Shown: in pieces, positions 1-15,020 of the stretch
Layout of the letters: every line of letters starts with the position of its first letter
Position numbering within the stretch: position 1 is the first letter of the stretch
Assembly (NCBI RefSeq): GCF_000425405.1
Contig: NZ_AUDJ01000032.1
Coordinates: 1 to 64,000 of the forward strand
From: Ferrimonas kyonanensis DSM 18153
Lineage (GTDB): Bacteria > Pseudomonadota > Gammaproteobacteria > Enterobacterales > Shewanellaceae
DNA length: 64,000 nucleotides
Direction: 5' to 3'
Translations under genes and position numbers: made by a program
The notes under the pieces: generated by a model
The model's database searches: none
Told to the model about the DNA's origin: nothing
Seen by the model: only the letters and a program-made list of their open reading frames with translations

Positions 1-80
1 AGGATTGAACCATCCTCCTGCAGAACACATACCTGAAAAACACTCTTGGCTAAATCGATTCCAATGGCTTTAATAGACAT
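1..80 (-). mobile_element. IS110-family transposase, N-terminal fragment (runs off the window)
   Basis: The first 26 codons of a transposase start at the ATG at 78-80 and run off the left edge. The N-terminus contains GIDLAKSVFQV, the hallmark start of IS110-family DEDD transposases, and resembles the IS1111 subgroup. Only about 83 nt separate the start codon from the inferred element end near 163, which fits the IS1111 arrangement with a short upstream non-coding end. A 9-bp inverted repeat (81-89 with 151-159) lies in this leader. The subgroup is inferred. Whether the element is intact cannot be judged from this window. Confidence 0.8.
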
Positions 81-163
81 GATGGACGCTCCTCTGGGAA
101 TTATGTTTCGCAACTTAATTCTGGCGCATTTGACGCCGTATCGTAGGGGGGCGTCCATCACAT
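81..163. mobile_element. Non-coding end of the IS110-family element
   Basis: This is the short non-coding end between the transposase start codon and the first base that matches the host palindromic repeat at 164. It contains a perfect 9-bp inverted repeat, gatggacgc at 81-89 and gcgtccatc at 151-159. The boundary was placed by comparison with the intact repeat copies at 13416-13446 and 13622-13652, where the bases before CACTGGG differ. Confidence 0.6.
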
Positions 164-433
164 CACTGGGTACCCGCGTTCGCGGGCACGACGGAGGAGT
201 GGTTAACCTGCGGTGGTAACGAGCGGCCCCAACTCTGTGGCAACCTCTAAAGCTCAAGTTAACTGCAAAATCTTCCTGATCGCACCGTCGCCCTTGCGAA
301 CGCGAGGGGTCATATCCTCCACCCCGTCGCCCTTGCGAACGCGAGGGCCCAGTGGCTTTTGCAAAGTAAAAATCAAAAGCGGGTGCGACAATCAAGGTCA
401 AAGTCGCTGGATTCTCGCGTGCGCGAGAATGAC
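164..433. repeat. Cluster of REP-like 31-nt hairpin elements, copies of types A, B and C
   Basis: There are four elements here. Type B lies on the plus strand at 164-192 with its first two bases replaced by the IS end. Type A lies on the minus strand at about 287-309 (head degenerate) and at 326-356. Type C lies on the plus strand at 403-433 with a perfect stem, attctcgcg/cgcgagaat. All follow head GYCRCTGG, 9-nt arm, 2-nt loop, 9-nt arm, tail GAC. No gene is seen between the IS end and the terminator at 466. Confidence 0.8.
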
Positions 434-465
434 CAAAGGCGAAGAGCGCTGGGGAGGGGGGCAAT

Positions 466-494
466 AAAAAAAGGAGCCTTAGGCTCCGTTTTTT
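466..494. terminator. Bidirectional rho-independent terminator after the chemotaxis operon
   Basis: The hairpin ggagcc-tta-ggctcc (473-487) is flanked by an A-run on the left and a T-run on the right, so it can act in both directions. It directly follows the DUF2802 stop codon on the minus strand and closes the flhA-to-DUF2802 operon. Confidence 0.85.
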
Positions 495-497
495 GAA

Positions 498-908
498 TCA
501 GGCGTTGGGTGACTTATGCAGGGTCACCAGCAGCTGCGCTTCCGCCATGGGAATTTCGCACTCTTTGACAATCTCGTCGACACCGGCCCCCAGCTCCACC
601 ATTTTCATGGCTCGGCTGTAGAGTCGGGCATCGGGATCGTTATGAGACAGCTCATCCTGTCTAGCTTGAGTATGGGCCAGTTGCTGCTCGATGGTTTTCA
701 CCTTACGGCCAACCCCGAGCGCACCACTGCGCAGCTCATTGAGCTCGCGACGCAAACCATCACGTTGACGCTCAGCCTCTTTCAGCAATAACGTCAACGC
801 TTCAAATTTGCGTTCGATCCCCTGGGCCTGTTGGCGGCTTTTCCACCCAAACAGCAGAGCCGCCAGAGACACCGCAGCCGCAGCCCCAGCAAGGATCAGC
901 GCTATCAC
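498..908 (-). CDS. DUF2802 membrane-anchored protein, last gene of the chemotaxis operon
   Basis: The protein has about 136 residues, one N-terminal transmembrane segment (Ala/Leu-rich), a coiled-coil middle (EAERQRDGLRRELNELR) and a C-terminal DUF2802 region (RAMKMVELGAGVDEIVKECEIPMAEAQLL). That region looks like a small helix-turn-helix-like fold. DUF2802 proteins commonly sit after cheW in polar flagellar clusters, and I know of no assigned function. I prefer the GTG at 908, which overlaps the cheW stop as GTGA and has AGGAG about 11 nt upstream. An in-frame GTG at 929 would add seven residues but has no good ribosome binding site. Confidence 0.85.
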   Translation of the reverse strand: MIALILAGAAAAVSLAALLFGWKSRQQAQGIERKFEALTLLLKEAERQRDGLRRELNELRSGALGVGRKVKTIEQQLAHTQARQDELSHNDPDARLYSRAMKMVELGAGVDEIVKECEIPMAEAQLLVTLHKSPNA

Positions 909-1399
909 AGGCCAGAGATCTCCTGCCACTCTTCATCGGTCAGCAGCTTATTGAGATCCACCAGAATCAGCAACTCGTCATCGCGATGGCTTACACCCTG
1001 AATGAACTTAGCGCTCTCTTCGGTGCCCACGTTCGGCGCCGAGTCGATCTCGGAGGAACGCAGGTAAACCACTTCCGCCACACTGTCCACCAGAATACCC
1101 ACAACCTGGCTCTCGGTTTCGATGATCACGATACGGGTGGTATCGGTCACGTCGGCCTGAGGCAGGGCAAAGCGGGAACGGGTATCGATCACCGTAACCA
1201 CGTTACCGCGCAGGTTGATGATTCCCAATACGTAGTGCGGCGCACCCGGTACCGGCGCGATGTCGCTGAATCGCAACACTTCCCGCACCTGCATCACGTT
1301 CACACCATAGGTTTCGTTATCCAGGCGGAAGGTGACCCATTGCAGTACCTTGTCTTCACCTTCGGTGGTTTCTGCCACCGCTGCGCGTAATTCACTCAT
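905..1399 (-). CDS. cheW: Chemotaxis coupling protein CheW
   Basis: The 164-residue protein is a single CheW (SH3-like) domain linking chemoreceptors to CheA. Family signatures include VNVMQVREVLRFSDIAPVPGAP, split here as two loops around residues 33-54, then VLGIINLRGNVVTVIDTR and a late ILVDLNKLL. There is no signal peptide or membrane segment, so it acts in the cytoplasm at the receptor array. It starts 4 nt after parP and overlaps the DUF2802 gene by 4 nt, so the genes are probably translated together. Confidence 0.96.
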   Translation of the reverse strand: MSELRAAVAETTEGEDKVLQWVTFRLDNETYGVNVMQVREVLRFSDIAPVPGAPHYVLGIINLRGNVVTVIDTRSRFALPQADVTDTTRIVIIETESQVVGILVDSVAEVVYLRSSEIDSAPNVGTEESAKFIQGVSHRDDELLILVDLNKLLTDEEWQEISGL

Positions 1400-1403
1400 C
1401 CTA

Positions 1404-2165
1404 TCAGGACTCCTTTACGGTAATATCTAAACCAGCATCAAGCATGCGTATCAGCTCAGGAACGTCGAGCACCACGCATTTCTTATCCCGAACAATGCCC
1501 GCCAACCAGGGCCGTTTCGATGAAGCCTGCTGCTGCCAGTTTATCTCTGACTTAGACAGCGGCTCCGCATCCAACAACGATTCGCAGGCCAGCGTCCAGG
1601 GGCTGTCCCCCAGGCGCACCAGATACTGATAATCGTAATCGGCGGTATTGGTTTGTGGTCGATCGGCCAAAAACCACTGGCCGCTGTCCACCACATTCAA
1701 TTTTCCATCTTGAGCATCCAACTGCACCCCCAGCACCCAGTTCGGGCTGCCGGGCAGGTGATTCAGCTTGCTCAGGCGTTTAATTCCGCCCAGTGTAAGC
1801 AACGGTACGGCAATCACCAAGCCCGCCACTTCGAAATACAGACACTGAAACTCCTGTTCCAGTTGCTCTCGCCAATCGGCTTCGTCGGCCGGTTGTGGTT
1901 GCTCCTGAACCGAGGCAGAGGTCTCGGACTCGACCACCGGCTCTGATGCCACCTTAACCGATGACGGTTGTTGTTGTACTTCAATCGCCTCTTCAACCTC
2001 AGTTGACGGCAAGGGTTCCACATCCGCAACGGCAGGATGTTCAACCTCAGCCTGCTCCAGCAATTGGCTGAGGCTGGCTTTCTGGACCTCATCCAACTCC
2101 GGCTTCGGCGGGGTCAACATGACGTCAAAATAATCTACTAGGGCCTGTTCTGCCGCTTTAGACAT
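1404..2165 (-). CDS. parP: ParP, CheW-like polar array protein
   Basis: The protein has 253 residues: a Pro/Glu/Val-rich disordered N-terminal half (about 20-115) and a C-terminal CheW-like domain (about 120-250, with VPLLTLGGIKRL and GSPNWVLGVQ). In Vibrio, ParP of this architecture binds CheA and ParC and holds the chemotaxis array at the pole; this is transferred by homology and by the adjacent parC. I chose the ATG at 2165, which has AAGGTGG 6-7 nt upstream. An in-frame GTG three codons earlier lies inside that ribosome binding site. It overlaps parC by 8 nt. The alternative name is CheW-like domain protein. Confidence 0.85.
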   Translation of the reverse strand: MSKAAEQALVDYFDVMLTPPKPELDEVQKASLSQLLEQAEVEHPAVADVEPLPSTEVEEAIEVQQQPSSVKVASEPVVESETSASVQEQPQPADEADWREQLEQEFQCLYFEVAGLVIAVPLLTLGGIKRLSKLNHLPGSPNWVLGVQLDAQDGKLNVVDSGQWFLADRPQTNTADYDYQYLVRLGDSPWTLACESLLDAEPLSKSEINWQQQASSKRPWLAGIVRDKKCVVLDVPELIRMLDAGLDITVKES

Positions 2166-2943
2166 GGAGCCCACCTTGTTGATCCAGCAACGCGTCTAAC
2201 AGTTGATCATAGGCCTTGACGCCACGACTGCCGGCATCGAAGTGCGATGGCGGCAAATGTGCCTGGCTGGCGTCACGAAAACGCGTGTCCACCGGAATCA
2301 CCGAATGCCACAGGTCTTTAGGGTACTTCTGTGTCAGCGCGGTCAGCGCCTGCAATGAAGCCCGGGTGCGCTTGTCGAACATGGTCGGCACTATGGTAAA
2401 CGGGTATTGGGTTCCCCGCGACCGCCCGACCATCTCCAGGGTTCGAACCATTCTATCCAGTCCCTTGAGCGCCAGAAACTCAGTTTGCACCGGAACCACG
2501 ATGCGGTCACACGCTGCCAGCGCGTTGATCATCAACACCCCCAGCACCGGCGGGCAGTCAATCAACACCGCATCATAACGATGGCTGACCATCTCCAGCA
2601 CCCGCTTAAGAATCAACCCCATGCCGTCTTTGGTGCCCAGGGTTCGATCCAGGGTCGCCAACGCCGTGGTGGCCGGCAACAGATCCAATTGCGGCACGCT
2701 AGTGGGGACAATCACCGCCTCAACGTGCTGACGCTCGATCTCTTCATGATAGCGAAACAGGTCAAACAGCGAACCCGGCAGTTCATCGGGATCCACCCCC
2801 AGGTAATAGCCCAGAGACGCCTGTGGGTCGGTATCGACCGCCAACACCCGGTAGCCGCGCTTCACCAGAAGCCCGGCCAGGGTAATGACGCTGGTGGTTT
2901 TGCCTACCCCACCCTTCTGATTCGATACGGTCCAGACCTGCAC
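2158..2943 (-). CDS. parC: ParC, ParA-type ATPase for polar placement of the chemotaxis array
   Basis: This is a 261-residue ParA/MinD ATPase. It has the deviant Walker A KGGVGKTT at residues 10-17 with both signature lysines, DTDPQ at 37-41 and VLIDCPP as Walker B. Within the family, position next to parP and cheW identifies the ParC branch, which in Vibrio recruits chemotaxis arrays to the cell pole. It is distinct from FlhG, the second ParA-type ATPase of this cluster (8596-9486), which has an N-terminal DQAxxLR motif that ParC lacks. It lies 30 nt after the small membrane protein gene. Confidence 0.88.
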   Translation of the reverse strand: MQVWTVSNQKGGVGKTTSVITLAGLLVKRGYRVLAVDTDPQASLGYYLGVDPDELPGSLFDLFRYHEEIERQHVEAVIVPTSVPQLDLLPATTALATLDRTLGTKDGMGLILKRVLEMVSHRYDAVLIDCPPVLGVLMINALAACDRIVVPVQTEFLALKGLDRMVRTLEMVGRSRGTQYPFTIVPTMFDKRTRASLQALTALTQKYPKDLWHSVIPVDTRFRDASQAHLPPSHFDAGSRGVKAYDQLLDALLDQQGGLHV

Positions 2944-2973
2944 GGACTTCCCCAGTTGCTAGTGCCGCTTAGC

Positions 2974-3321
2974 CTATGGCTCGCGGCTGATTTTTACCCC
3001 ACCATGGGGTTGAGCATAGGTGGTGACACCGGCGTCATCGGTCGTCAAGGCGACCGGCTCACCGGTTTCCTGAGCCTGTTGATGACGACGACGAATCTCC
3101 TGTCGCTGACGTTCCAACTCCCGCCACTGAGTCAACTCGGTGGCCAGAGTTTGCAATTGCTGTTGCTGCTGCTCGGTAATCGACTGTTGGTTGACCAACT
3201 GCTGCTCCAATTCGGCAGCCACATGGTGCTTATCCACGGCCCAAAACAGGCTGACGCAAGCCACGGTGGCCAGCACGGCCATCAGGTACCCATTGAGCTT
3301 ACAGCGCCAGCCGCAGGTCAT
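2974..3321 (-). CDS. Small membrane-anchored coiled-coil protein of the chemotaxis locus, unknown function
   Basis: The protein has 115 residues. A short basic N-terminus (CGWRCKLNG) is followed by one transmembrane helix (about 11-29), a long Gln/Glu-rich coiled coil (about 30-85) and a polar tail. No catalytic motif is seen. The start codon overlaps the cheB stop as ATGA, so it is translationally coupled to cheB, and parC follows. Similar proteins occupy this slot in Shewanella, where I recall only a positional label. A link between the membrane and the array is a guess from topology and neighbours. Confidence 0.75.
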
Positions 3322-4463
3322 CGGCGACCCACCTCTTTAAGGATGCAGTCGGCCATCTTATCCAAGGGAATGGAGCAGCTGGAGATCTGTTCGACCGCCA
3401 CCGCCTGCGGCATGCCGTAGACCACGCAACTGGCTTCGTCCTGGGCCCAGATATTGGCCCCTTCCCGCTTGAGCATCCGCGAGCCTTCACGGCCGTCGGC
3501 CCCCATGCCGGTGAGGATCACTCCCAGCACATCGCCTTTGTAAATTCGGGCCGCCGACCCAAAGGTCACGTCCACCGAGGGTTTGTAGTTCAGCTGTTCA
3601 CCGCCGTCGCGAATGGTCAGCTTGGCGGCGCGGTTGGAACCATCGATCAGCATCTGTTTGCCGCCGGGGGCCAGATAGGCGCAGCCAGGCTTGAGCACTT
3701 CTCCGCCCTGGGCTTCCTTAACCGAAATCTTACACAGGCTGTCCAGTCGCTGAGCAAACGCCGGGGTAAAGGCCGCCGGCATGTGCTGCACCAGCACGAT
3801 GGGCAGTGGAAAATCCGCTGGCAACAGGGTAAGAATCTTTTGCAGGGCAACCGGGCCGCCGGTGGAGGTTCCGATGGCCAGAAGCTTATAACTCTTGCCG
3901 CTGGGCCTGGACGGCATTTTCACCGCCCCCACGTCACTGCTGGTGCCGGTGCGCAGCGCCGGCCGCGGCGCGGTGGTAGCCGGCTTGGAGGCAACCGCAG
4001 TGCGACTGCTCAAGGTTGAGCGCGGACTGGCCGGAGCCGGAGTCGGCCGGCTGCTGCCCAGGCTGCGACGCGACGCGATGGCACGCACCCGCTGCTGCAA
4101 CAGGGCGATGGCATTGGCACGGTCGTTGGCAATGTCCTCGAAACGCTTCGGCAGGAAGTCGGCGGCACCGGCCTCCAGCGCTTCCAGCGTGGAGCGCGCG
4201 CCCTCGTAGGTGAGGGAGGAGAACATCAATACCGGCACCGGGTTAGTGCGCATGATTTCGCGCACCGCTTCGATGCCGTTCATCTGCGGCATCTCGATGT
4301 CCATGGTCACCACCTGCGGACGCAGGCGGCGTACTTGCTCAACGGCTTCGCGGCCGTTGGAGGCGGTACCTACCACCTCCAGCAACGGATCTGCGTTGAT
4401 GATTTCCGATACGCGGCGACGAAAAAAACTTGAATCGTCTACCACCAGTACTTTTATCGACAT
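3318..4463 (-). CDS. cheB: Chemotaxis response regulator protein-glutamate methylesterase CheB
   Basis: The 381-residue protein has a receiver domain (1-120; acidic pair DD at 9-10, phosphoacceptor D55 in TMDIEMP) and a Ser/Pro/Thr-rich linker (about 135-185). The C-terminal methylesterase/deamidase domain carries the catalytic triad: serine in GTSTGG, histidine in VQHMP and aspartate in MGADG. It removes methyl groups from chemoreceptor glutamates when phosphorylated by CheA. The linker is longer than in E. coli CheB. The matching methyltransferase CheR is 42 kb away (46613-47440). Confidence 0.96.
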
Positions 4464-4491
4464 ACCTATCCTTCGTTTACTCTACCGACTG

Positions 4492-6687
4492 CTAGCGTCT
4501 TGCGTGTTGCTTCAGCAGTCCAGGTACATCGAGAATCAGGGCACAGCCACCGTCAGAGGTGATGGTGGCACCGGCCATGCCGGGAGTGCCGTGAAGCAGT
4601 GAACCTAAGGGTTTAATCACTACCTCTTCCTGGCCAATCAGGCCATCCACCACGAAACCGACCTGCAGGGTCCCGATGTGGACGATCACCACATGGCCCT
4701 GGTCTTCGCGCTCCACCCGGCCGGGGCCATTCAGCAGCCACTTGTCGAGGTAGAACAGCGGGATCGCCTTTTCACGCACGGTCACGGTCAACTGACCATC
4801 CACCACATTGGTCTTGCTCAGATCCAGGTGGAAAATTTCGTTGATGCAGGACAGCGGCAGGGCAAAGATCTGCTCACCCACTTCCACCATCAACGTCGGC
4901 ATGATCGCCAAGGTCAGTGGCACCTTGATCTCAAGGATGGTACCGGTGCCCTTGCTGGAGTCGATGTGCACCGAGCCGTTCAACTGAGTGATGCGGGTCT
5001 TGACCACGTCCATGCCCACACCACGGCCGGAGATGTCGGAGATCTCGGTCTTGGTGGAGAAGCCAGGGGCAAAAATCAGGTTGTAGGCGTCCTGGTCACT
5101 CATGCGGGCGGCGCCATCCTCATCGAGAATGCCGCGGCTGATGGCAATGCCTTTGAGCCTTTCCGCATCCATACCGGCACCGTCATCGCGGATGCACAGC
5201 AGGATGTGGTCGCCCTCCTGAGAGGCCGACAGCAGAATGTTACCCTGACGAGGTTTGCCATTGGCTTCGCGTTCGTCCGGCATCTCGATGCCATGGTCGA
5301 CGGCGTTACGCACCAGGTGCACCAGTGGATCAGACAGCGCCTCAACCAGGTTCTTATCGAGGTCGGTATCCTCCCCTTCCATGGTCAGGGCAATGTCTTT
5401 GTTGAGGCTGCGAGCCAGATCGCGAACCACGCGCGGGAAGCGGCCAAACACCTTTTTGATGGGCTGCATGCGGGTCTTCATTACCGCACCCTGGAGATCG
5501 GCAGTCACCAGATCCAGGTTGGCCACCGCTTTGCTCATCTCTTCATCTTCACGCTCGATGCCGAGGCTGACCAACCGGTTACGCACCAGCACCAGCTCAC
5601 CGACCATGTTCATGATGTCATCGAGGCGAGCGGTATCTACCCGGACCGTGGTTTCCCCACTGGGGGCGTTCTGGTTTTTGGCCGGCGCCTTTTTCGCGGC
5701 GGCTTTGGCCGGTGCAGGCGCCGCTTTGGCCACCGGGGCTGGCGCGACAGGCTGAGCGGCAGCCGGTTCCGGGGTTACCGCAGCCGGGGCCTGGCCCTTA
5801 CCGTGCAACTGATCCAGCAACGCCTCAAACTCGTCATCGGTTATGTCATCGGACGCCGATGCTTCGGCAGCCGCAGGAACTTTGCCCGGCGCGCCCCCTT
5901 TGCCGTGCAGCTCATCCAGCAGGTTTTCAAACTCATCGTCGGAGATCAGGTCGCCGGAAGCGGCCGCCGGTTCCGGCGCCACTTCGGTAGAGAACTGCCC
6001 CTTGCCATGCAGGTTATCCAGCAAGGCTTCAAATTCATCGTCTGAGATTTCGTCTCCGGTGCCGATGTCGGCAGGGGCGGAGTCACTGGCTGCAGACGCG
6101 GTGGGCAGAGGCGCGCCGCATTGGCTGTCATCCAGGCCACTCATGATGTGCTCAAACTCGGGCTGAGTCATGCTGTCGATGCCGCCGCCATTGAGCGAAA
6201 CGGGCTCGGGCTCGACGCTTGGCTCTGGCACAGGTTCAGCGGCCGGTGCCGGGGCACTGACCTCTGCGGGCTCGGGAACCGCTAATGGCGATGGGCTGTT
6301 GGGGTCGGTGATCGCTGCCAGAGTCGCCAGCAATTGCGGGTCCGCTGGCTCCAGCTCATCACCGGCCTGCACCAGGGCAAACATTTCGTTGACCGTGTCC
6401 AGAGCCTGTAAAATCACGTCCATCAGCTCTGACGTCATCTCCAGCTGGCCATTGCGCAGCATGTCGAACACGTTTTCGGCGCCGTGACAGGCGTCGACCA
6501 GGTGGGTCAGACTCAAGAAGCCCGCCCCGCCTTTTACTGTATGGAAACCCCGAAAAATGGCGTTTAACAGGTCGCTGTCGGTGGGGTTATTTTCCAACTC
6601 CACCAGCTGCTCCTGCAACTGTTCCAAAATCTCACCTGCTTCAACCAAAAAGTCCTGCAGGATTTCGTCATCTATGTCAAAACCCAT
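4492..6687 (-). CDS. cheA: Chemotaxis histidine kinase CheA
   Basis: The 731-residue kinase has an HPt domain (about 1-110; phosphoaccepting H49 in FHTVKGG), a long Ala/Pro/Glu-rich linker (130-345), dimerisation (about 345-410), ATPase (about 410-590; SDPLVHLVRNAVDHGIE, DDGAGMD, GRGVGMDVV) and a C-terminal CheW-like regulatory domain. No globular P2 domain is evident. In its place three near-identical 17-residue motifs of the type DEFExLLDxLHGKG start at residues 214, 248 and 282, exactly 34 apart. In Vibrio the corresponding CheA region includes the ParP-binding LID segment. The gene follows cheZ by 10 nt. Confidence 0.97.
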   Translation of the reverse strand: MGFDIDDEILQDFLVEAGEILEQLQEQLVELENNPTDSDLLNAIFRGFHTVKGGAGFLSLTHLVDACHGAENVFDMLRNGQLEMTSELMDVILQALDTVNEMFALVQAGDELEPADPQLLATLAAITDPNSPSPLAVPEPAEVSAPAPAAEPVPEPSVEPEPVSLNGGGIDSMTQPEFEHIMSGLDDSQCGAPLPTASAASDSAPADIGTGDEISDDEFEALLDNLHGKGQFSTEVAPEPAAASGDLISDDEFENLLDELHGKGGAPGKVPAAAEASASDDITDDEFEALLDQLHGKGQAPAAVTPEPAAAQPVAPAPVAKAAPAPAKAAAKKAPAKNQNAPSGETTVRVDTARLDDIMNMVGELVLVRNRLVSLGIEREDEEMSKAVANLDLVTADLQGAVMKTRMQPIKKVFGRFPRVVRDLARSLNKDIALTMEGEDTDLDKNLVEALSDPLVHLVRNAVDHGIEMPDEREANGKPRQGNILLSASQEGDHILLCIRDDGAGMDAERLKGIAISRGILDEDGAARMSDQDAYNLIFAPGFSTKTEISDISGRGVGMDVVKTRITQLNGSVHIDSSKGTGTILEIKVPLTLAIMPTLMVEVGEQIFALPLSCINEIFHLDLSKTNVVDGQLTVTVREKAIPLFYLDKWLLNGPGRVEREDQGHVVIVHIGTLQVGFVVDGLIGQEEVVIKPLGSLLHGTPGMAGATITSDGGCALILDVPGLLKQHARR
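5794..6048 (-). repeat. Three 34-residue repeats inside CheA (DEFExLLDxLHGKG motif)
   Basis: Residues 214-298 of CheA hold three copies of I[ST]DDEFExLLDxLHGKG at strict 34-residue spacing, separated by Ala/Pro-rich linkers. The motif resembles the CheY-binding ends of FliM (DEIDALLHG, residues 8-16) and CheZ (DEVDDLLSSLGF, last 12 residues) encoded in the same window. Confidence 0.9.
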
Positions 6688-6697
6688 CGCCTAGCTC

Positions 6698-7423
6698 CTA
6701 GAACCCGAGGCTGGAAAGCAGATCGTCAACTTCATCCTGACCGTTCACGACTTCCGCTTTGTTTTCCGAACTCACTACTGGGCCTTCCGCCGCTGCCGTG
6801 TCGACAGTCTGACGGTTTACGTCTGCCTGCTCACCGAAGACGGTCAGCATCGACACCAGATTCTCTTCCACTTCTCGCACCAGGTCGATCACCCGGCGAA
6901 TCACCTGCCCGGTGAGATCCTGAAAATCCTGAGCCATCATAATCTGGTTCAGGGTATCGGTCACCTTACTGGCATCGGCGGCGGAGGTAGACAGCATGGT
7001 GTCCATTTCGTGGCACAGCGTCTTAAACTCGCCCAGCTCAATCTGCTTATCCATCAGCTTTTGCCAGCCGGGTTGCAGACTCTGAATCCGCGACTGCATC
7101 TGCGACACCAACGGCATGCCATCATCCAGCGCATCCATGGTGCGGTTGGCCGCCTGCTCGGTCATCTCGATAACGTAAGTCAGGCGCTCTTTGGCATCGG
7201 GAATCTCGTGCTTGGCGAGGTCCGAAATGCGGTCGTCAAGTTGGAAGTCCTGCAATGCATCGTGCAGTTGACGAGTCAGTTTACCGACTTCATCGAACAA
7301 TTTTTGATTCAGTGGCGCGGCCGCCATCTGAATGAGTTGGTTCGCCTGCTCTACCTGGTCCTGCTCTAACAAAGCCACCAGTTCACGGGCATCTTCCAAC
7401 GAGATATAGGCATCCTGTTGCAT
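6698..7423 (-). CDS. cheZ: CheY-P phosphatase CheZ
   Basis: The 241-residue helical protein speeds dephosphorylation of CheY-P. The catalytic stretch AQDFQDLTGQVIRRVI contains the conserved catalytic Gln of CheZ. The last residues, DEVDDLLSSLGF, are the tethered amphipathic CheY-binding helix. The length is slightly above E. coli CheZ. It lies between cheY and cheA, 18 nt after the cheY stop, in the flhA-fliA-che operon. Confidence 0.95.
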   Translation of the reverse strand: MQQDAYISLEDARELVALLEQDQVEQANQLIQMAAAPLNQKLFDEVGKLTRQLHDALQDFQLDDRISDLAKHEIPDAKERLTYVIEMTEQAANRTMDALDDGMPLVSQMQSRIQSLQPGWQKLMDKQIELGEFKTLCHEMDTMLSTSAADASKVTDTLNQIMMAQDFQDLTGQVIRRVIDLVREVEENLVSMLTVFGEQADVNRQTVDTAAAEGPVVSSENKAEVVNGQDEVDDLLSSLGF

Positions 7424-7441
7424 ATGCTCTCCCTGCGACTT

Positions 7442-7825
7442 TTAGTTAAGACGGTCGAATATTTTTTCCAACTTCTCTTTTAGGGTCGCAGCAGTAAAAG
7501 GTTTAACGACGTAACCGTTTACACCAGCCTCGGCCGCCATCACGATCTGCTCGCGTTTGGCTTCGGCGGTTACCATCAAAACAGGCAGGTGCTTCAGATT
7601 CTGGTCTGCGCGAATGGCACGCAGCAGGTCAATCCCCTGCATGCCCGGCATGTTCCAGTCAGTTACGACAAAATCGAAATCGCCTTCCTTCAGCATAGGA
7701 AGGGCAGTATTGCCATCGTCCGCTTCGAGAGTGTTGTTAAACCCCAGGTCACGCAATAAGTTTTTGATGATCCGACGCATTGTTGAAAAATCATCAACGA
7801 TCAGAATCTTCATGTTTGTGTTCAA
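7442..7825 (-). CDS. cheY: Chemotaxis response regulator CheY
   Basis: This single-domain receiver binds FliM after phosphorylation to switch flagellar rotation. It has acidic pair D11-D12, phosphoacceptor D56 in VTDWNMPGM, Thr in MVTAEA and Lys in VVKPF. The start is ambiguous. I chose the TTG at 7823-7825 because a good GGAGG lies 5 nt upstream, giving an N-terminus like that of other polar-flagellum CheY proteins. The internal ATG at 7813 is 17 nt from that site, and the ATG at 7852 has no ribosome binding site. The first residues ([10 protein letters not shown]) resemble Vibrio CheY3. Confidence 0.93.
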
Positions 7826-7889
7826 AACATCCTCCAGCCGGGGTATCCCCATCGAGCCAATAGTGCAGAGCGCATTATTAATCTAAATT

Positions 7890-8603
7890 CTATTGTTGCC
7901 AACTTGATAAGCGACTTTTAAGGCGCATCATTGCCTGACTATTGATCTGGCTCACTCGTGATTCACTTACCCCAAGCACCAGACCAATTTCTTTCAAGTT
8001 GAGTTCTTCATCGTAATAGAGCGACAAAACCAGCGCTTCTCTTTCAGGCAATGTTTTAATTGCGGCAGAAAGCGCCTTTTGAAACCGTTCCTGAGCCACC
8101 TGCTCAAAATTGCGTTGCGGCGCATCTTCATCAACAAAGCTATCGGCCGGCACGCCCAAATCTTCAATGCCGACCATTCTACCCATGCTGGCTTCATTTA
8201 GCATCTGATGATATTCAGCAACAGGTACGTCCAGATGCTCGGCCACTTCGGTATCGCGGGGATCCCGACCGAGGCGTTTTTCCAGTTCGCTGATGGCTTC
8301 GGTGACCTGACGGTAGTTTCGATGAACCGATCGTGGCACCCAGTCGCCACGACGAATTTCATCCAGCATGGCACCGCGAATACGGATGCCGGCAAAGGTC
8401 TCAAAACTGGCCCCTTTGCTGCCGTCGAAATTCCTGGAGGCTTCCAGCAGGCCAATCATGCCGGACTGAAGCAAGTCATCCAGTTGCACACTGGCCGGCA
8501 GACGGGCCATCAGGTGATGGGCGATGCGCTTCACCAGCGGGGCGTAGCGCTCGACCAAGGAGGTTCGGTTATCGAACTGGGTGTAGGCGGCCGCCTTATT
8601 CAC
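7890..8603 (-). CDS. fliA: Flagellar sigma factor FliA (sigma28)
   Basis: The 237-residue sigma70-family factor has regions 2 (SVQLDDLLQSGMIGLLEA, GASFETFAGIRIRGAM), 3 (LGRDPRDTEVAEHL) and 4 (LKEIGLVLGVSESRVSQI). It directs transcription of late flagellar genes and is held by FlgM until the hook is complete. The start is a GTG at 8601-8603 giving MNKAAAYTQF, which matches the family N-terminus and has GGGGAA upstream. It overlaps flhG by 8 nt. Four good FliA-type promoters in this window (fliC, flaG, flgM, flgO) are its likely targets. Confidence 0.96.
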   Translation of the reverse strand: MNKAAAYTQFDNRTSLVERYAPLVKRIAHHLMARLPASVQLDDLLQSGMIGLLEASRNFDGSKGASFETFAGIRIRGAMLDEIRRGDWVPRSVHRNYRQVTEAISELEKRLGRDPRDTEVAEHLDVPVAEYHQMLNEASMGRMVGIEDLGVPADSFVDEDAPQRNFEQVAQERFQKALSAAIKTLPEREALVLSLYYDEELNLKEIGLVLGVSESRVSQINSQAMMRLKSRLSSWQQ

Positions 8604-9486
8604 CAACCGCTTCCCCGTACATATTGCGGCGCACCAGACGTTCGACAAAGAACTCCAGATGCCCTCCGGGGTTATCCGGAGTTGGCCAACTCATCACTTT
8701 GTTGGACAGCCCCTGGTAAGCGATGGACGCCGGGGCACGTGGGAAGGCTTCGACCACGACCCGCTGTTTGCGGACGGCCTTACGCACGTTTTCATCAAAG
8801 GGTATGGTGGCCACCAGTTCCAGGGCCACATCGAGGAAGCGATCCGTCACTTTCGACAGCTTGGCAAACAGCTCCATGCCCTCCCGCAGACTGCGGACCA
8901 TGTTGGCCACAATGCGGAAGCGGAATACGCCGTGCTCCCGAGACAAAATCTTAATCAGGGCATAGGCATCGGTAATGGACGTGGGCTCGTCGCACACCAC
9001 CACCATCACCTCCTGCGCGGCCCGCGAGTAGCTAAGCACCATCTCTGAGATGCCGGCCGCGGTATCCACGATCAGCACATCAAACTCGTCTTCCAGCTCG
9101 CTGAATGCGCGAATCAGACCCACATGCTGAGCGGCGGTTAACTCCACCATCTCTTGAGTGCCCGACGCTGCCGGCACGATGAATACCCCTTTGGGGCCTT
9201 CCACCAGCACTTCCGACAGGGTGCATTCGCCGCTGATCACGTGCGACAGGTTGTGCGTTACCCGCAGTCCAAGCAATACGTCCACGTTGGCCAGGCCCAG
9301 GTCACCGTCGAGCACCAGCACCTTCTGGCCTTTCTGTGCCAGTGAGGTTGCCAGGTTAATGGAGACGTTGGTTTTGCCCACGCCGCCTTTGCCGCCGGTC
9401 ACCGCAATCACTTTCACCATCTTTTGCTTTTGCTGTGCCATCTTTCTTAGTCCGCTCGCCTGATCCTGCAAAAACCATCTATTCAT
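8596..9486 (-). CDS. flhG: FlhG (FleN), ParA/MinD ATPase controlling flagellar number
   Basis: The 296-residue ATPase carries an N-terminal DQASGLR (residues 8-14), the FlhG motif that stimulates the FlhF GTPase, and then the deviant Walker A GGKGGVGKTN near residue 31. It limits flagellar number in polar flagellates and in relatives also restrains FlrA/FleQ. The ATG at 9484-9486 was chosen because it gives the family N-terminus MNRWFLQDQAS. It overlaps flhF by 8 nt. In-frame codons upstream read through flhF in another frame and are not part of the protein. Confidence 0.96.
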   Translation of the reverse strand: MNRWFLQDQASGLRKMAQQKQKMVKVIAVTGGKGGVGKTNVSINLATSLAQKGQKVLVLDGDLGLANVDVLLGLRVTHNLSHVISGECTLSEVLVEGPKGVFIVPAASGTQEMVELTAAQHVGLIRAFSELEDEFDVLIVDTAAGISEMVLSYSRAAQEVMVVVCDEPTSITDAYALIKILSREHGVFRFRIVANMVRSLREGMELFAKLSKVTDRFLDVALELVATIPFDENVRKAVRKQRVVVEAFPRAPASIAYQGLSNKVMSWPTPDNPGGHLEFFVERLVRRNMYGEAVGE

Positions 9487-10960
9487 AGCTGCCCGCCATA
9501 CTCTGTCGTTGTTCGGGCTCGCCCCATTGCTGCGGTTGGTCCAGGACCACCGCGCGTCGCGCCAAGTATTCGGGTTCGGCGGTGCGAAGATCTTCAGGTA
9601 CTCGTTGTCCATCAGTAAGGTAACTGATTGGCAAGGAATTTTGAATCAAAACGCTCAACGCCTCTCCGATGTTATGGGCCTCATCCAGCTTAGTGAAAAT
9701 GCACCCTGCCAGGGAGATGCGGCGGAACTGTTCCACCGTTTCCTTGAGCACCCGATACTGGGCCGTCGATGACAACACCAGGTAGGGGCGGATGGGCAAC
9801 CGGGTCGCTGCAACCAGGTTATCCAGCTGTTCCACCAGTCGCATGTCCCGCTGGCCCATGCCAGCGGTGTCGATCAGAATCAATCGACGGCTGCGAAGCT
9901 GATACAGCACATTTTCTAACTCCTTCACATTACTGGCACTTCGCACCGGACAGCCCATGATTTTACCATAGGTAGCCAACTGTTCTTTGGCGCCAATACG
10001 ATAGTTATCGGTCGTAATCAGCGCAACTTGATCAACTCCGTACCGAGCTGCGAAGCGTGCCGCCAATTTGGCCACTGTTGTGGTCTTGCCCACACCGGTT
10101 GGCCCCACCAGTGCGATGACGCCGCCCTGGCTCAATGTCTCTTCCGAAGTCTGAGTCAACTCGCGGGCAATCAGTTGTGGCAACTGAGCCAATGCGTCAT
10201 GCAGGCTCAGGTGCTCCGGCACCATGGAGGCGAAATGATCCGCCACACTGCGGTGAAAACCGTTGTCCCGAAGCTTCTCCGCCAGCATCGCTCGCACCGG
10301 CTCGCGACGGGCCAGATCCTGGTCCATCAGGTTAGAGACCTGGTGCTCCAACAATTGACGAATGGACGCCATCTCATCGCGCACTGCCTGCAGCTCCTGC
10401 TGACCGCCGCCACGGTTTTCCACCGGACGGGGTTTCGCCTGTGCCTTGGGTGCCGCCTTAGGTTGCTCCGGCCGGCCAAAGGCTTCCTTAGCCCACTCCG
10501 GCAATGCCTCATTACGACGCCCCAGTTGCCGCGGCTGCTCCTCTTCGAAGCTTCGCTGCTTCAATCGCTGCTGCTGACGCTCCAGCAAGCCACGCAGGCT
10601 GTCGCTGGCAGCATCGGCCTCAGATTTGCGAGGCTGGCGGTCGTCGCTGACCAGCGGTTGTTTCGCCGGGCTGCGCAGCGGCGCCTGTTGGCGCGGCGCA
10701 TGGGTCGGGGCTTTCATCCCCCCCAGGGAAACCGTATCTTCGGCCAGCTTACGGGATAACATCGACGGAGCCGGAGCAGTAGACAGATTCAGTGACGGAT
10801 TACTGGCGCCACTGTGGTCATCAAAATCCACGGCCGCCACAATTTCGACGCCGCCGTTGACCTTTTTATTGGACATGATCACCGCATCGGTGCCCAGAGT
10901 CTCTTTGACTTCGGCCAGCGCGGTGCGCATATCCTTGGCAAAAAATCGTTTTATCTTCAC
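9479..10960 (-). CDS. flhF: FlhF, SRP-type GTPase setting the polar site of flagellum assembly
   Basis: The 493-residue protein has a basic/Gln-rich N-terminal domain (1-200; MKIKRFFAKDMR start), an N-helical region and an SRP-type G domain with GPTGVGKTTTVAKL (G1, about 281), TTDNYRIGA, DTAGMGQRD (G3) and TKLDEA (G4). FlhF places the first flagellar structure at the old pole. It starts at GTG 10958-10960, 25 nt after flhA, and overlaps flhG by 8 nt. Family assignment is clear from the G-domain motifs and the neighbours. Confidence 0.97.
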   Translation of the reverse strand: MKIKRFFAKDMRTALAEVKETLGTDAVIMSNKKVNGGVEIVAAVDFDDHSGASNPSLNLSTAPAPSMLSRKLAEDTVSLGGMKAPTHAPRQQAPLRSPAKQPLVSDDRQPRKSEADAASDSLRGLLERQQQRLKQRSFEEEQPRQLGRRNEALPEWAKEAFGRPEQPKAAPKAQAKPRPVENRGGGQQELQAVRDEMASIRQLLEHQVSNLMDQDLARREPVRAMLAEKLRDNGFHRSVADHFASMVPEHLSLHDALAQLPQLIARELTQTSEETLSQGGVIALVGPTGVGKTTTVAKLAARFAARYGVDQVALITTDNYRIGAKEQLATYGKIMGCPVRSASNVKELENVLYQLRSRRLILIDTAGMGQRDMRLVEQLDNLVAATRLPIRPYLVLSSTAQYRVLKETVEQFRRISLAGCIFTKLDEAHNIGEALSVLIQNSLPISYLTDGQRVPEDLRTAEPEYLARRAVVLDQPQQWGEPEQRQSMAGSYE

Positions 10961-10985
10961 GTTGGTTTACTCCCCGCTCCTCGGG

Positions 10986-13085
10986 TTACTGGCCCACGGA
11001 GTGGACAATTCGAATCTGTTTATCATCCGGTATCTCCTGATAGGACAGTACCCTCAGGGATGGAATCGTATGTTTTACAAACCGGCTCAATGTGGTTCTC
11101 AATACGCCGGAGGTCAGCAGCACGGCAGGCTCTCCCACCATCTCCTGCTTCTGGGCCGTTTCTGACAACGACTTCTGCAGGCGCTCTGCCAGCCCGGGCT
11201 CCAGGCCGCTGTTATCACCGTTGCTGGATTGTAATGACTGATGCAATATTTGTTCCAGCTCAGGTGACAAAGTAATGACGGGTATTTCGGACTCGGAGCC
11301 GTTTATCTCCTGAACAATCAGACGTTTCAGAGCGATACGCACCGCCGCCGTTAACACTTCCGGATCTTTACTCTTTGGTCCGTACTCCACCAGGGTCTGC
11401 ACCAGGGTGCGCACATCCCGCACCGGTACTCCCTCGTTGAGCATGTTCTGCAGTACCTTGACGATCACGCCCAGAGACAGCACTTCAGGCACCAGACCAT
11501 CCACCAGTTTGGGTGAATCTTTGGCCAGGATATCCAGCAACTGCTGAACCTCTTCGTAGCCCAGCAACTGCGAGGCATTGTTGGTAAGCAGTTGGCTAAG
11601 GTGGGTGGCCACCACCGTCGCCGCATCCACCACGGTGTATCCCAGAGTCTGGGCATGGTCACGACGATCAGAGTTGATCCACACCGCTTCCAGACCAAAC
11701 GCCGGATCGGTGGTGGTCTGGCCCTCCAGTTGCCCAAACACCTGACCCGGGTTGATGGCCAGTTCGCAATCATGGCGAATCTCGGCTTCACCGATGGCCA
11801 CCCCCATCAGGCTGATGCGGTAGGCGTTCGGAGCCAGGTCCAGGTTGTCACGGATGTGGACGGGCGGAATCAGGAAACCAAACTCCTGCGACAGCTTTTT
11901 GCGCACCCCCTTGATGCGGGCCAACAGCTCCCCTTTCTGTGCCTTGTCCACCAGCGGGATCAGGCGGTAGCCCACCTCCAGGCCGATGGTGTCGACCTGA
12001 TTGACGTCGTCCCAGCCCAGCTCTTTGGTTTCTGCCTCGATGCGCTCGGTGGCGGCGGTTTCCTGTTCCTGCACCGCCACTTCGGCGGCCTTCTGGCGCC
12101 GCTTAAAGGTCCAGTAGGTCAGACCAGCACCGCACAAGCCAAAGCCCAGGAACGCCAGCTTCGGCATGCCCGGCACCAACCCCATGACAATCAACACCCC
12201 GGAGGTCACCATCAGCACCTTGGGATCGTCGAACATCTGGCTGACCAGGGTCTCGCCCATCTTCTGGGATTCGTTCTGGCGGGTAATGATGATGGCGGCA
12301 GCGATGGACAACAGCAACCCGGGAATCTGTGCCACCAGGCCGTCACCAATGGTCAGCAGGGTGTAAATCTCCAGTGCCTCAGCAAAGCCGAGCTGGTGCT
12401 GGGTCATGCCGATGACGAAGCCGCCGAGGATGTTGATGAACAGGATCAGGATGCCGGCAATGGCATCGCCTTTCACGAACTTGGACGCACCGTCCATGGC
12501 CCCGTAGAAGTCGGCTTCTTTGGCCACTTCGCCACGACGCTCACGGGCCTGCTCCTGGTTGATCAACCCGGCGTTAAGGTCGGCATCGATGGCCATCTGC
12601 TTACCGGGCATGGCGTCCAGGGTAAAGCGAGCGGTCACTTCGGAAATACGACCGGCACCCTTGGTGACCACCACAAAGTTGATGATCACCAGAATCAGGA
12701 ACACCACCAGACCCACGGCATAGTTGCCGCCGATCACCACCGAGCCGAACGCCTCGATCACCTTACCGGCGGCATCACCGCCGTTGTGGCCCTCCAGCAG
12801 AACCAACCGCGTAGACGCCACGTTCAGTGCCAGCCGCAGCAAGGTGGCAATCAGCAGCACGGTAGGGAAGGCGGCGAAGTCCAGCGGGCGCATGGTGTAG
12901 ATGGACACCAGCAACACCACCAGAGCCAGGGCTATGTTGAACGAGAACAGCATGTCCAGCAGCAGCGCCGGCATGGGCAGGGTCACCATGGCCAGGGCCG
13001 CCAGCACCATCAAAGGTGTACCGGCTCCCTTTAGGAAGATGCCGTATTTTTGGAAAAAGCCGGACAGGCTGGACTGTAGATTCAT
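10986..13085 (-). CDS. flhA: Flagellar type III export gate protein FlhA
   Basis: The 699-residue protein has an N-terminal membrane half with about eight helices (1-330). The conserved FHIPEP-type loop includes GAGRISEVTARFTLDAMPGK and INQEQARERR. The cytoplasmic half (about 360-699) contains the chaperone-docking ring domain. FlhA forms the nonameric export gate ring. A sigma54-type promoter lies 44 nt upstream (13129-13144). It is the first gene of the flhAFG-fliA-che operon and is separated from flhB by a repeat array. Confidence 0.97.
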   Translation of the reverse strand: MNLQSSLSGFFQKYGIFLKGAGTPLMVLAALAMVTLPMPALLLDMLFSFNIALALVVLLVSIYTMRPLDFAAFPTVLLIATLLRLALNVASTRLVLLEGHNGGDAAGKVIEAFGSVVIGGNYAVGLVVFLILVIINFVVVTKGAGRISEVTARFTLDAMPGKQMAIDADLNAGLINQEQARERRGEVAKEADFYGAMDGASKFVKGDAIAGILILFINILGGFVIGMTQHQLGFAEALEIYTLLTIGDGLVAQIPGLLLSIAAAIIITRQNESQKMGETLVSQMFDDPKVLMVTSGVLIVMGLVPGMPKLAFLGFGLCGAGLTYWTFKRRQKAAEVAVQEQETAATERIEAETKELGWDDVNQVDTIGLEVGYRLIPLVDKAQKGELLARIKGVRKKLSQEFGFLIPPVHIRDNLDLAPNAYRISLMGVAIGEAEIRHDCELAINPGQVFGQLEGQTTTDPAFGLEAVWINSDRRDHAQTLGYTVVDAATVVATHLSQLLTNNASQLLGYEEVQQLLDILAKDSPKLVDGLVPEVLSLGVIVKVLQNMLNEGVPVRDVRTLVQTLVEYGPKSKDPEVLTAAVRIALKRLIVQEINGSESEIPVITLSPELEQILHQSLQSSNGDNSGLEPGLAERLQKSLSETAQKQEMVGEPAVLLTSGVLRTTLSRFVKHTIPSLRVLSYQEIPDDKQIRIVHSVGQ

Positions 13086-13128
13086 GTTCCGTCTGATTGT
13101 TGACGCCGAGCGGGAATGCTAACGAATA

Positions 13129-13144
13129 AGCAAGGAGTATACCA
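13129..13144 (-). promoter_or_regulatory. Sigma54 promoter for flhA
   Basis: On the minus strand the element reads TGGTAT-ACTCC-TTGCT, with the invariant GG and GC 10 nt apart. It ends 44 nt before the flhA start codon. Sigma54 control of flhA is known in Vibrio flagellar cascades. Confidence 0.75.
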
Positions 13145-13300
13145 GTCACCGAACGCCTGCACAGCGCCGACGAGGGATGCCGTGATAAAAAACGGGATTT
13201 CAGCACTATAGAGAAAAAGATTAAGTGAATTTTACTGCCGTTAATCTTGATGACCATCGTGTTGCTGACGCTGTCACTCAGCGGTGTTCGAGCACAATAC

Positions 13301-13506
13301 CAAAGTCGCTGGGCCCTCGCGTTCGCAAGGGCGACACGGCTGGAGAGTTGTGCGAACGGCAGGGGTAGTGGTCGCCATCCATGCCGGATTCGCATGGCGT
13401 AAGCTACGACCTTCCGTCGTGCCCGCGCACGCGGGTACCCAGTGGCTTTGCCCTTTTGTCATTCTTGCGTAAGCGAGAATCGTGTGGCTGTTTCCACGGT
13501 CAACAT
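13301..13506. repeat. 206-bp tandem repeat, unit 1
   Basis: Unit 1 of a direct repeat with an exact 206-bp period. It contains element A on the plus strand (13305-13335), element B on the minus strand (13416-13446) and element C on the minus strand (13458-13488, head degenerate). Unit 1 and unit 2 differ at about five positions, all in the last 40 bp. Confidence 0.93.
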
Positions 13507-13712
13507 CAAAGTCGCTGGGCCCTCGCGTTCGCAAGGGCGACACGGCTGGAGAGTTGTGCGAACGGCAGGGGTAGTGGTCGCCATCCATGCCGGATTCGCA
13601 TGGCGTAAGCTACGACCTTCCGTCGTGCCCGCGCACGCGGGTACCCAGTGGCTTTGCCCTTTTGTCATTCTTGCGTAGGCGAGAATCCAGTGGCTGTTTC
13701 CACGGTCAAAAC
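13507..13712. repeat. 206-bp tandem repeat, unit 2
   Basis: Unit 2 carries element A at 13511-13541 (plus), B at 13622-13652 (minus) and C at 13664-13694 (minus) with an intact head. A third, truncated unit starts at 13713 and keeps only element A. The first 160 bp or so are identical to unit 1, so the duplication is recent or kept uniform by gene conversion. Confidence 0.93.
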
Positions 13713-13716
13713 CAAA

Positions 13717-13833
13717 GTCGCTGGGCCCTCGCGTTCGCAAGGGCGACATATTGGGGCATGTCGCTGGCCCCTCGCGTTCGCAAGGGCGACATATTGGGGC
13801 GTGTCGCTGGGCCCTCGCGTTCGCAAGGGCGAC
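13717..13833 (+). repeat. 43-bp tandem repeat carrying three type A hairpin elements
   Basis: Elements A start at 13717, 13760 and 13803, an exact 43-bp period, each followed by a short linker such as atattggggc. Each element is 31 nt: head GTCGCTGG, arms GCCCTCGCG and CGCAAGGGC around TT, tail GAC. One copy has CC for GC after the head. The last copy ends 17 nt before the flhB stop codon. Confidence 0.93.
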
Positions 13834-13850
13834 GGGGTGGGAAACCGAGG

Positions 13851-15020
13851 CTACTCCGAATCAGGCTTCAGCGGGTTGCCATCGCTGTCCATCTGCAGTT
13901 CGTCGGGGATCGGCAGAGTGTTGGGCAGTGGCACGGGGCGGCCGCTGCGGCCTTTCTGGAACTGCTTCAACTGGAACACATAAGCAAGAATCTGTGCCAC
14001 TGCGGTGAACAAGCCGTCTGGAATCTGCTTGTTCAGTTTGGTGGAGTAATACACCGCCCGCGCCAGTTGCGGCGAGCTGATCACCGGCACCTCGTACTCT
14101 CGGGCGATCTCGCGAATCTTCAGCGCCACCTCGTCGGTGCCCTTGGCCACCACCAGCGGTGCCCGGGCCTTGGCCTTGTCGTATTTCAGTGCCACCGAGT
14201 AGTGCGTCGGGTTGACCACCACCACATCGGCCTGAGGCACCTCACTCATCATCCGTCGCTGAGACATCTCCCGCTGCAACTGGCGAATCCGCCCCTTGAC
14301 CTCAGGTTTACCCTCGCTGTCTTTATGCTCATCCTTGATCTCCTGCTTGGTCATCTTCAGCTGCTTGGTGTGGTTCCAGATCTGATACGGCGCATCGATG
14401 ATCACAATCAGCATCAGCGAACAACAGAGAATGGTAAACAGCTTATTGAGCAGGGACACGGAACCGGCAATGGCGCCAAAGGTGGTGCCGGTGGACAGTG
14501 CCATGATGTCTTCAAAGTAGATGGTCAGCAGCATCCAGGCCACCACCGCCACTACCGCAAACTTGGCCACGGCTTTCACCAGCTCCACCACGGCCTGCAC
14601 CCCGAACATCCGCTTAAAGCCATTGATGGGGTTAAATTTATTCATTTTCGGGGCCGCCGCCTTCCAGCTGAAAGTCATGCCCCCCAGCAGGGTGTTGCCC
14701 ACAAAGGCGGCCACGGTCAGGAACACCACAAATCCCAACACTGGCAGCCCCACCGCCATCACAATCTCGCCAAAGACCCGGGTCATCTCTGACACGTCAA
14801 ACACCTGGGCACGATTGCGACTGAACAGTGACGTCGCCAGCGAAATCATGCTCTGGGCGATGGCCTGACCAAAAATCATCATGGCGATGGCGGCCCCCAT
14901 CAACACAAACGCGGTGCCCATCTCTTTGGATCGGGGCACCTGCCCTTTCTCCCGGGCCTGCTGGAGTCGTTTGGGTGTGGGGTCTTCGGTTTTTTCCTGA
15001 TCGCTGCTGTTTTCTGCCAT
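13851..15020 (-). CDS. flhB: Flagellar export switch protein FlhB
   Basis: The 389-residue protein has a charged N-terminus (SSDQEKTEDPTPKRLQQAREKG), four membrane helices (about 30-210) and a cytoplasmic domain with the self-cleaving NPTH loop in VVVNPTHYSVAL. Cleavage at NPTH switches export from rod/hook to filament substrates, with FliK as the ruler. The C-terminal tail is Pro-rich. It shares one base with the fliR stop (TGATG) and is the last gene of the fliE-flhB operon. The 3' end abuts the palindromic array. Confidence 0.97.
   Translation of the reverse strand: MAENSSDQEKTEDPTPKRLQQAREKGQVPRSKEMGTAFVLMGAAIAMMIFGQAIAQSMISLATSLFSRNRAQVFDVSEMTRVFGEIVMAVGLPVLGFVVFLTVAAFVGNTLLGGMTFSWKAAAPKMNKFNPINGFKRMFGVQAVVELVKAVAKFAVVAVVAWMLLTIYFEDIMALSTGTTFGAIAGSVSLLNKLFTILCCSLMLIVIIDAPYQIWNHTKQLKMTKQEIKDEHKDSEGKPEVKGRIRQLQREMSQRRMMSEVPQADVVVVNPTHYSVALKYDKAKARAPLVVAKGTDEVALKIREIAREYEVPVISSPQLARAVYYSTKLNKQIPDGLFTAVAQILAYVFQLKQFQKGRSGRPVPLPNTLPIPDELQMDSDGNPLKPDSE

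Follow-up and report, generated by a model that had tools for sequence, protein, structure and literature searches.

The window examined here is a stretch of 64,000 nt from Ferrimonas kyonanensis DSM 18153, a member of the Shewanellaceae, and represents the start of contig 20 (NZ_AUDJ01000032.1, positions 1 to 64,000) of a 4.93 Mb genome assembled in 40 contigs. It bears 13 copies of a short hairpin in two clusters, and these are CGTC-tagged repetitive extragenic palindromes (REPs) whose stems are of three types (A, B and C), organized like bacterial interspersed mosaic elements (BIMEs), the established term for such mosaic arrays of inverted REPs. We consider it likely, at roughly three chances in four, that the partner of these arrayed palindromes is a 95 aa GIY-YIG endonuclease, which is encoded once in the genome and inside one of the arrays. 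Its gene is located on the minus strand of contig 24 (C24:50589-50873), where it is flanked by a type B REP (50531) and a type A REP (50940) with their tags outward, and the single domain of the product matches the Pfam GIY-YIG family (E-value = 1.9e-14).

Linkage of the nuclease gene to CGTC hairpins

A genome collection was scanned with an alignment of nine nuclease sequences, which returned at least 586 stretches, at least 572 of them confirmed, and the best 80 loci were kept. A hairpin reading GTC-stem-loop-stem-CCA is established within 150 nt of the gene in 72 of these best 80 loci, and 51 have hairpins on both sides within 300 nt. Hairpin density reaches 7.9 per kb at 0-100 nt from the gene, compared with 0.04 per kb at 500-1000 nt and 0.09-0.16 per kb further out, while the reversed-sequence control and the two swapped-tag controls gave 0/80 loci within 150 nt. 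Judged by record title, 55 of the best 80 belong to Pseudomonadota and 20 to twelve other named phyla, with 5 being unassigned and many being metagenome-assembled genomes (MAGs). Stems differ between the species surveyed, and the tags at the 51 two-sided loci point outward in 34 cases, inward in 10 and in the same direction in 7 (34 vs 10, p = 0.0004). Other GIY-YIG genes served as controls: no hairpin was detected at the other short GIY-YIG loci of the same family (0/14), which we take to be YhbQ-type, nor at the one locus of UvrC length (0/1).

Two hosts named in the 2013 survey of CGTC-tagged REPs (PMC3733652) are among the organisms with such a gene, namely Azospirillum lipoferum, where CGTC hairpins lie on both sides, and Sinorhizobium meliloti, where hairpins lie upstream. 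A Neisseria sp. MAG locus (L163) encodes a homologue with 62% identity, also adjoining CGTC hairpins.

Within the family, a search of 152 genomes (E-value 1e-10) led to the nuclease in 28, with one copy each except for G142, which has two. At least one CGTC..CCA hairpin was present in the ~1.5 kb flanks of 24/29 loci and within 150 nt in 19/29, with gene bounds taken from the stretch ends and hence approximate for L108 and L117 (two genes per stretch) and for L115; the stems and lengths of these hairpins vary by genome. At least three CGTC pattern matches were found in 21 of the 28 nuclease-positive and 11 of the 124 negative genomes (Fisher p = 2.8e-12), in a test that ignores relatedness and uses a threshold chosen after the counts had been seen, and at least ten were found in 12/28 and 4/124, respectively. 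The pattern used in these counts misses some stems, e.g., those of type A and of the G096 type. One homologue (L115, at G093:C1:938114-938377) carries a single in-frame TAG and is apparently decayed; it was omitted from the nuclease tree.

The genome of F. kyonanensis has three GIY-YIG genes in total. The other two are presumably ordinary, one YhbQ-like (L086) and one a 612-aa frame consistent with UvrC, the proteins inspected for these labels being L086 and L145 only. Residues Y7, Y18, R28, E65 and N84 are invariant across the nine aligned nuclease sequences, and we assume that they are the catalytic ones. Comparison with solved structures gave no match for the single nuclease protein and three weak matches for the alignment, the sole GIY-YIG-like one being a UPF0213 protein (E-value = 0.0018).

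The palindromes and their arrays

In the 2013 survey, CGTC-tagged REPs are one of two large REP superfamilies and consist of a CGTC tag, an 8- or 9-bp stem, a 4- or 5-nt loop and an unpaired CCA tail, where the tag, also unpaired, can be TGTC or CCTC as well (PMC3733652). Read on the tag strand, the elements of F. kyonanensis show (C)GTC, an 8-bp stem, a 4-nt loop and CCAGTGnCTTT. Genome-wide, 116 A-like copies (at most three mismatches) and 159 B/C-like copies (at most two) were found, counts in which a few hybrids could appear twice, and the same patterns reversed gave 0. The fetched stretches together with the window hold 286 deduplicated copies at up to three mismatches. The base preceding GTC, which is itself part of the search pattern, is C in 178/286 copies (CGTC), T in 86 (TGTC), G in 18 and A in 4. 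The CCAG tail, also a part of the pattern, remains 95-98% conserved at each position in 284 copies even with the mismatches allowed, and TGnCTTT is conserved past it in the same copies (G 96%, C 94%, T 96%, T 78% and T 80%); the conserved unit is therefore nearer 38-40 nt than 31 nt.

A preliminary description of these elements, made from the letters of the window, had read them from the other strand, as a head GYCRCTGG followed by 9-nt arms around a 2-nt loop, with CTGG as the recognised tetranucleotide. Its identification of REPs is backed by the genome-wide copies, the BIME-like arrays and the fixed tag and tail. The 13 copies that it described are real and are part of a genome-wide set of about 280, but their 9-2-9 geometry is better read as an 8-bp stem with a 4-nt loop on the CGTC strand, and the tag that defines the class is CGTC, at the other end and on the opposite strand, the CTGG head being the complement of the CCAG tail. 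As a scanner, the pattern GYCRCTGG-N20-GAC that follows from that description proved too loose, with 166 genome-wide matches vs 69 for the reversed control. In the window, it is exact in 10/13 copies, one copy (162-192) has a single mismatch and two (~287 and 13458) have no head, so that the head ascribed to all copies holds for 11/13, while the count of 13 copies in two clusters and three types stands. At up to one mismatch the window gives 20 matches (shuffle mean 6.84, maximum 15), the remaining 9 of which were judged to be non-members by arm sequence.

Folded as DNA on the CGTC strand, types A, B and C all present an unpaired tag, an 8-bp stem, a 4-nt loop and an unpaired tail. For A and B this fold has the minimum energy, and for C, whose minimum adds two outer pairs, it is the centroid; on the opposite (CTGG) strand the stem is not the best fold for A or B. 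Mismatches fixed as C.A or A.C on the CTGG strand become T.G wobbles when the CGTC strand is read, and pairs changed within types give G.T more often on the CGTC strand than on the other (47 vs 20, p = 0.0013, the copies not being independent). From the predicted folds and this bias, the CGTC strand appears to be the selected one.

Between types and between species, both arms of the stem differ, with a constant tag, tail and geometry, and this is the part of the originally described covariation that persists. Inside types the picture differs: 127 of 142 changed pairs are one-sided (50 of them outright broken) and 7 are two-sided Watson-Crick changes, and strict covariation within a stem type was not found. 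The pattern is that of three founder families and not of many independent compensations.

The 286 copies lie in 43 arrays of 1-26 copies, several of which are truncated where a contig or a fetched stretch stops, and the arrays are mosaics of the three types. Neighbouring A and B copies are oppositely oriented in 137/146 pairs and A and C in 29/29, whereas B and C have the same orientation in 38/38. Where tails face each other, the gap is most often 28-35 nt; where tags do, it is most often 80 or 95-98 nt, with 12 nt in a further 7 pairs, and the B-C tandem gap is mostly 14-15 nt. This layout is that of BIMEs, with the arrays of GTAG-tagged REPs in Escherichia coli as our comparison. Assembly contigs often start or finish in or near REP arrays (L041, L043-L047, L049, L050, L052-L058); short reads probably fail to assemble across the arrays, and the real number of copies may exceed the one counted.

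Within the CGTC class, the survey describes CGTC-1, including the neisserial dRS3, with the same CGTC tag, 8-bp stem, 4-nt loop, CCA tail and high copy number, and with oppositely oriented pairs that have no transposase gene of the REP-associated tyrosine transposase (RAYT) kind alongside (PMC3733652). A and T are said there to occupy stem positions 1 and 2 of the CGTC set 'almost invariably'; by contrast, types A and B of Ferrimonas begin with GC and GT, respectively, and complementary A/T at the first two positions is found in type C only. We treat the missing AT start as a family detail and not as a defining criterion. Grouped CGTC elements are described in the same survey as rare, except in Neisseria and Wolbachia, where most are clustered, and the large three-stem mosaic arrays found here (43, with up to 26 copies) differ from the CGTC REPs of 2013 (PMC3733652). 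The mosaic intergenic arrays of Neisseria, as described there, consist of CGTC-1 elements interspersed with members of other repeat families, and are similar in that CGTC palindromes are interleaved with other sequence in large intergenic clusters. The array units of F. kyonanensis measure ~180-210 nt, and no Rfam family was matched at an E-value of 0.1 in positions 1-14500 of the window.

Proposed action of the nuclease and competing explanations

We propose that the nuclease would bind the hairpin formed by the CGTC strand when this is single-stranded DNA, and would then cut it. Instead of one fixed stem sequence it would read the tag, the part near the loop and the CCA tail, and such reading would account for species-specific stems that share a constant geometry, tag and tail. 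The outward-tagged pair (CGTC-hairpin-CCA ... TGG-hairpin-GACG) could be what is copied, or what shapes recombination, whether or not its halves enclose the nuclease gene. The class, the arrays, the physical linkage, the co-occurrence, the strand difference of the predicted fold and the empty sites in relatives are what the data show; binding and cleavage, as well as any role in spread or in DNA uptake, are what we infer. A broader reading, to which we give somewhat less than an even chance, is that CGTC palindromes and single-domain GIY-YIG nucleases constitute one widespread mobile system, a non-HUH counterpart of the RAYTs and their REP doublets forming hairpins (REPINs). The autonomous unit would then be a palindrome, the GIY-YIG gene and a second palindrome (~400 bp, tags outward), the 90-nt outward pairs would be its non-autonomous copies, and one enzyme would maintain several stem types by reading tag, loop and tail.

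Several findings weigh against the partnership of nuclease and palindromes. No hairpin was found within 300 nt at 8 of the best 80 loci, which are moreover the loci most like the query, with a few coming from the same genome bin, or in the fetched flanks of 5/29 family loci, and the nuclease gene on plasmid pNL2 of Novosphingobium aromaticivorans, another CGTC host named in the 2013 paper, has none either. G009, the closest of the relatives searched, with 98% FlhB identity to F. kyonanensis, bears 167 copies of the same types and no nuclease match at E-value 1e-10, carrying just the two other GIY-YIG genes (L076-L078, L228, L278); G005, G016 and G017 carry hairpins and likewise gave no match at this threshold. 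Such carriers without a match could be due to loss, an assembly gap or another enzyme. With z-scores of -0.69 (A), -0.10 (B) and -1.93 (C), the hairpins predicted for types A and B have no advantage in stability over their shuffles, 40/200 and 88/200 of which, respectively, fold as well; the strand argument therefore rests on the common shape and not on stability. Over 189 distinct hairpins of other genomes the G.T bias is modest (40 vs 20, p = 0.013). Loop class follows the nuclease tree in a combined set of 108 rows (16 changes vs a shuffled mean of 23.8; 95/108 rows labelled, the 13 without a near hairpin being unlabelled), but not in the 80-locus set alone (12 changes vs 12.2), and broad coevolution of the two is not claimed. 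Finally, GIY-YIG nucleases cut DNA, and none is known to join it.

The preliminary description had named RAYT enzymes, that is, Y1/HUH transposases, as the movers of these elements, and they could be acting now or have been lost. GTAG-tagged REPs and REPINs with RAYTs do share tagged hairpins, inverted pairs, mosaic arrays and a repeat-flanked enzyme gene with the present elements (in part PMC3733652), and Y1_Tnp genes occur in 88/152 family genomes. The tag here is nevertheless CGTC/TGTC, the linked enzyme is a GIY-YIG and not an HUH/Y1 protein, and a search of the F. kyonanensis genome for an element-flanked RAYT gene found none, as there was no Y1_Tnp match at all, either there or in the hairpin-bearing G005, G009 and G012. 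The association of Y1 genes with CGTC hairpins is weak (23/32 REP-bearing vs 65/120 other genomes, p = 0.11), and a GTC..CCA hairpin lies near 1/30 fetched family Y1 loci, in a doubtful member. In agreement, the 2013 survey reports no transposase genes associated with CGTC REPs and no tyrosine transposase gene flanked by CGTC units (PMC3733652). We reject RAYT as the mover and regard its involvement, past or present, as very improbable. About as little credit can be given to the hairpins being RNA elements (terminators, mRNA stabilisers or decay barriers) that serve host regulation and are amplified by recombination alone. Array context, readable from crude open reading frame (ORF) calls in 21/43 cases (22 being at a contig or stretch end), is indeed mostly between unidirectional (12/21) or convergent (5/21) genes, with 2 arrays between divergent genes and 2 inside an ORF; one array sits within a flagellar gene run, and a 206-nt tandem duplication in it is growth by recombination. 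However, no T-run stands directly after the stem, with a short CTTT 7 nt further on, and the terminator-like stem with a T-run in the window is separate (~467-495); the flagellar site is hairpin-free in 9/14 genus members, no Rfam family was matched in positions 1-14500 of the window, and host regulation leaves unexplained why a nuclease gene stands beside the same palindromes in other phyla.

A less remote, although still unlikely, explanation is that the nuclease is a hitchhiking passenger of the homing type, for which REP arrays would be safe, recombination-prone landing sites, and that it leaves the palindromes themselves alone. Homing endonucleases can contain GIY-YIG domains, a weak PADLOC 'homing endonuclease' match was obtained (E-value = 0.0011), and REP arrays are hit by other elements, such as the insertion sequence (IS) of the IS110 family described below. 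At many loci, however, the palindromes stand beside the gene and not in wide arrays, with a hairpin density of 7.9 per kb next to the gene that is down to 0.04 per kb before 1 kb is reached, and a random passenger would not be expected to meet the same tag and tail, with differing stems and mostly outward, across several phyla.

Returning to the nuclease as partner of the palindromes, a study of 2025 is said to have described Ssn enzymes, single-strand-specific nucleases with a GIY-YIG domain, a Neisseria member of which reportedly acts on NTS repeats and modulates natural transformation. The likeness consists of a small GIY-YIG nuclease with hundreds of cognate genomic repeats, and in F. kyonanensis we find a single GIY-YIG domain of ~100 aa with intact motif residues and a gene linked to the repeats; the Ferrimonas nuclease is perhaps a member of the Ssn family. 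It differs from the reported case in its genus, in the three stem types per enzyme and in the BIME-like arrays. Should that account hold, the enzyme itself would not be new, and the present analysis adds the Ferrimonas member, the three-stem BIME-like arrangement, the gene unit with outward tags and the tie to CGTC. Text searches of the literature, with most subscription journals outside their coverage, led to no work joining GIY-YIG to REP elements beyond passing co-mention, and the word GIY-YIG is absent from the main text of the 2013 survey (PMC3733652). That survey left the question of what multiplies CGTC REPs open, and the linkage reported here (72 of the best 80 loci, in several phyla, compared with 0/14 paralogue controls) names a small, testable candidate enzyme (PMC3733652 for the survey). 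If the mobile system outlined above were true, the CGTC superfamily would gain the enzyme that it has lacked, and if the nuclease spreads the repeats, repeat dissemination would have arisen around two unrelated catalytic folds. Should it act on incoming single strands instead, as is said of Neisseria, the repeats would mark regions of restrained DNA uptake. The Ferrimonas setting offers ~280 targets with three stem types for one enzyme.

Array sites and features of the window

Synteny of two array sites was studied across the genus. In the ~1.5 kb fetched after flhB, a hairpin is present in 5/14 members and absent in 9/14, with A/B/C stems in F. kyonanensis and G009 and other stems in G005, G008 and G012. 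After the DUF2802 gene, arrays are established in F. kyonanensis, G009, G005 and G008 and none is found in G012 and G001; here too the A/B/C stems are those of F. kyonanensis and G009, while G005 and G008 have others. Spacers of the F. kyonanensis arrays are unmatched in G005 and G008 apart from REP-length pieces (27-43 nt), and the sequence preceding flhA accounts for a match of 60-65 nt with G005 and G012. Stem replacement or conversion in situ at common sites is disfavoured, as the spacers differ beyond REP-length pieces, and repeated colonisation or independent turnover of favoured intergenic sites seems more likely from these comparisons.

In the window, the first cluster contains four copies (162-433) and is located downstream of the DUF2802 gene, adjoining CheW and ParA-like genes. 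Specifically, it consists of a type B REP at 162-192 (+, CTGG-first on this strand, its CGTC strand thus being the minus one), whose outer tail is truncated by the end of an IS110-family element, a degenerate type A REP at 287-313 (-) with three mismatches and no head, a type A REP at 326-356 (-) and a type C REP at 403-433 (+). The second cluster contains nine copies (13305-13833) and occupies the gap that separates flhB from flhA, within a run of flagellar genes (gene names from Pfam families). Type A is found there on the plus strand at 13305-13335, 13511-13541, 13717-13747, 13760-13790 (with the CCCCTCGCG variant arm) and 13803-13833, with 17 nt separating this last copy from position 13851, where the flhB reading frame ends. 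On the minus strand are the type B REPs at 13416-13446 and 13622-13652, the type C REP at 13664-13694 and a degenerate type C REP at 13458-13484, with three mismatches and an altered head. Two tandem BIME-like units of 206 nt, 98% identical, cover 13295-13706 (+), and the type A REP at 13511-13541 is within the second of them.

The N-terminus of the IS110-family transposase is encoded at 3-80 (-), and the end of the element abuts the type B REP at 162. The same element end abuts a type B REP tail at the same position (CCAGTGATG) in 3/3 copies found (window 1-161, G000:C12:272 and G000:C24:51101; L245-L247), and the IS therefore seems to target the REP. The family call comes from a DEDD_Tnp_IS110 match (E-value = 1.3e-5) on a 77-aa fragment of the longer copy of contig 24, which is below the curated cut-off.

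Apart from the nuclease gene, contig 24 (L031-L033) carries eight array clusters and, among 10 hand-picked proteins, the capsule/exopolysaccharide functions SLBB/Poly_export, Glycos_transf_4, Wzi and UDPG_MGDP_dh. REPs with other stems in G096 and G091 (L067-L068, L070) lie, by eye, around apparent sugar-nucleotide and glycosyltransferase genes. REP arrays together with the nuclease gene are seen around capsule/exopolysaccharide clusters both in Ferrimonas and in a second genus of the family, whose stems are different. Finally, between the end of the DUF2802 gene and the first REP cluster, at 460-495 of the window (stem ~467-495, by eye), there is a terminator-like stem followed by a T-run, and a similar GGAGCC..GGCTCC stem is kept in G005, G008 and G009.

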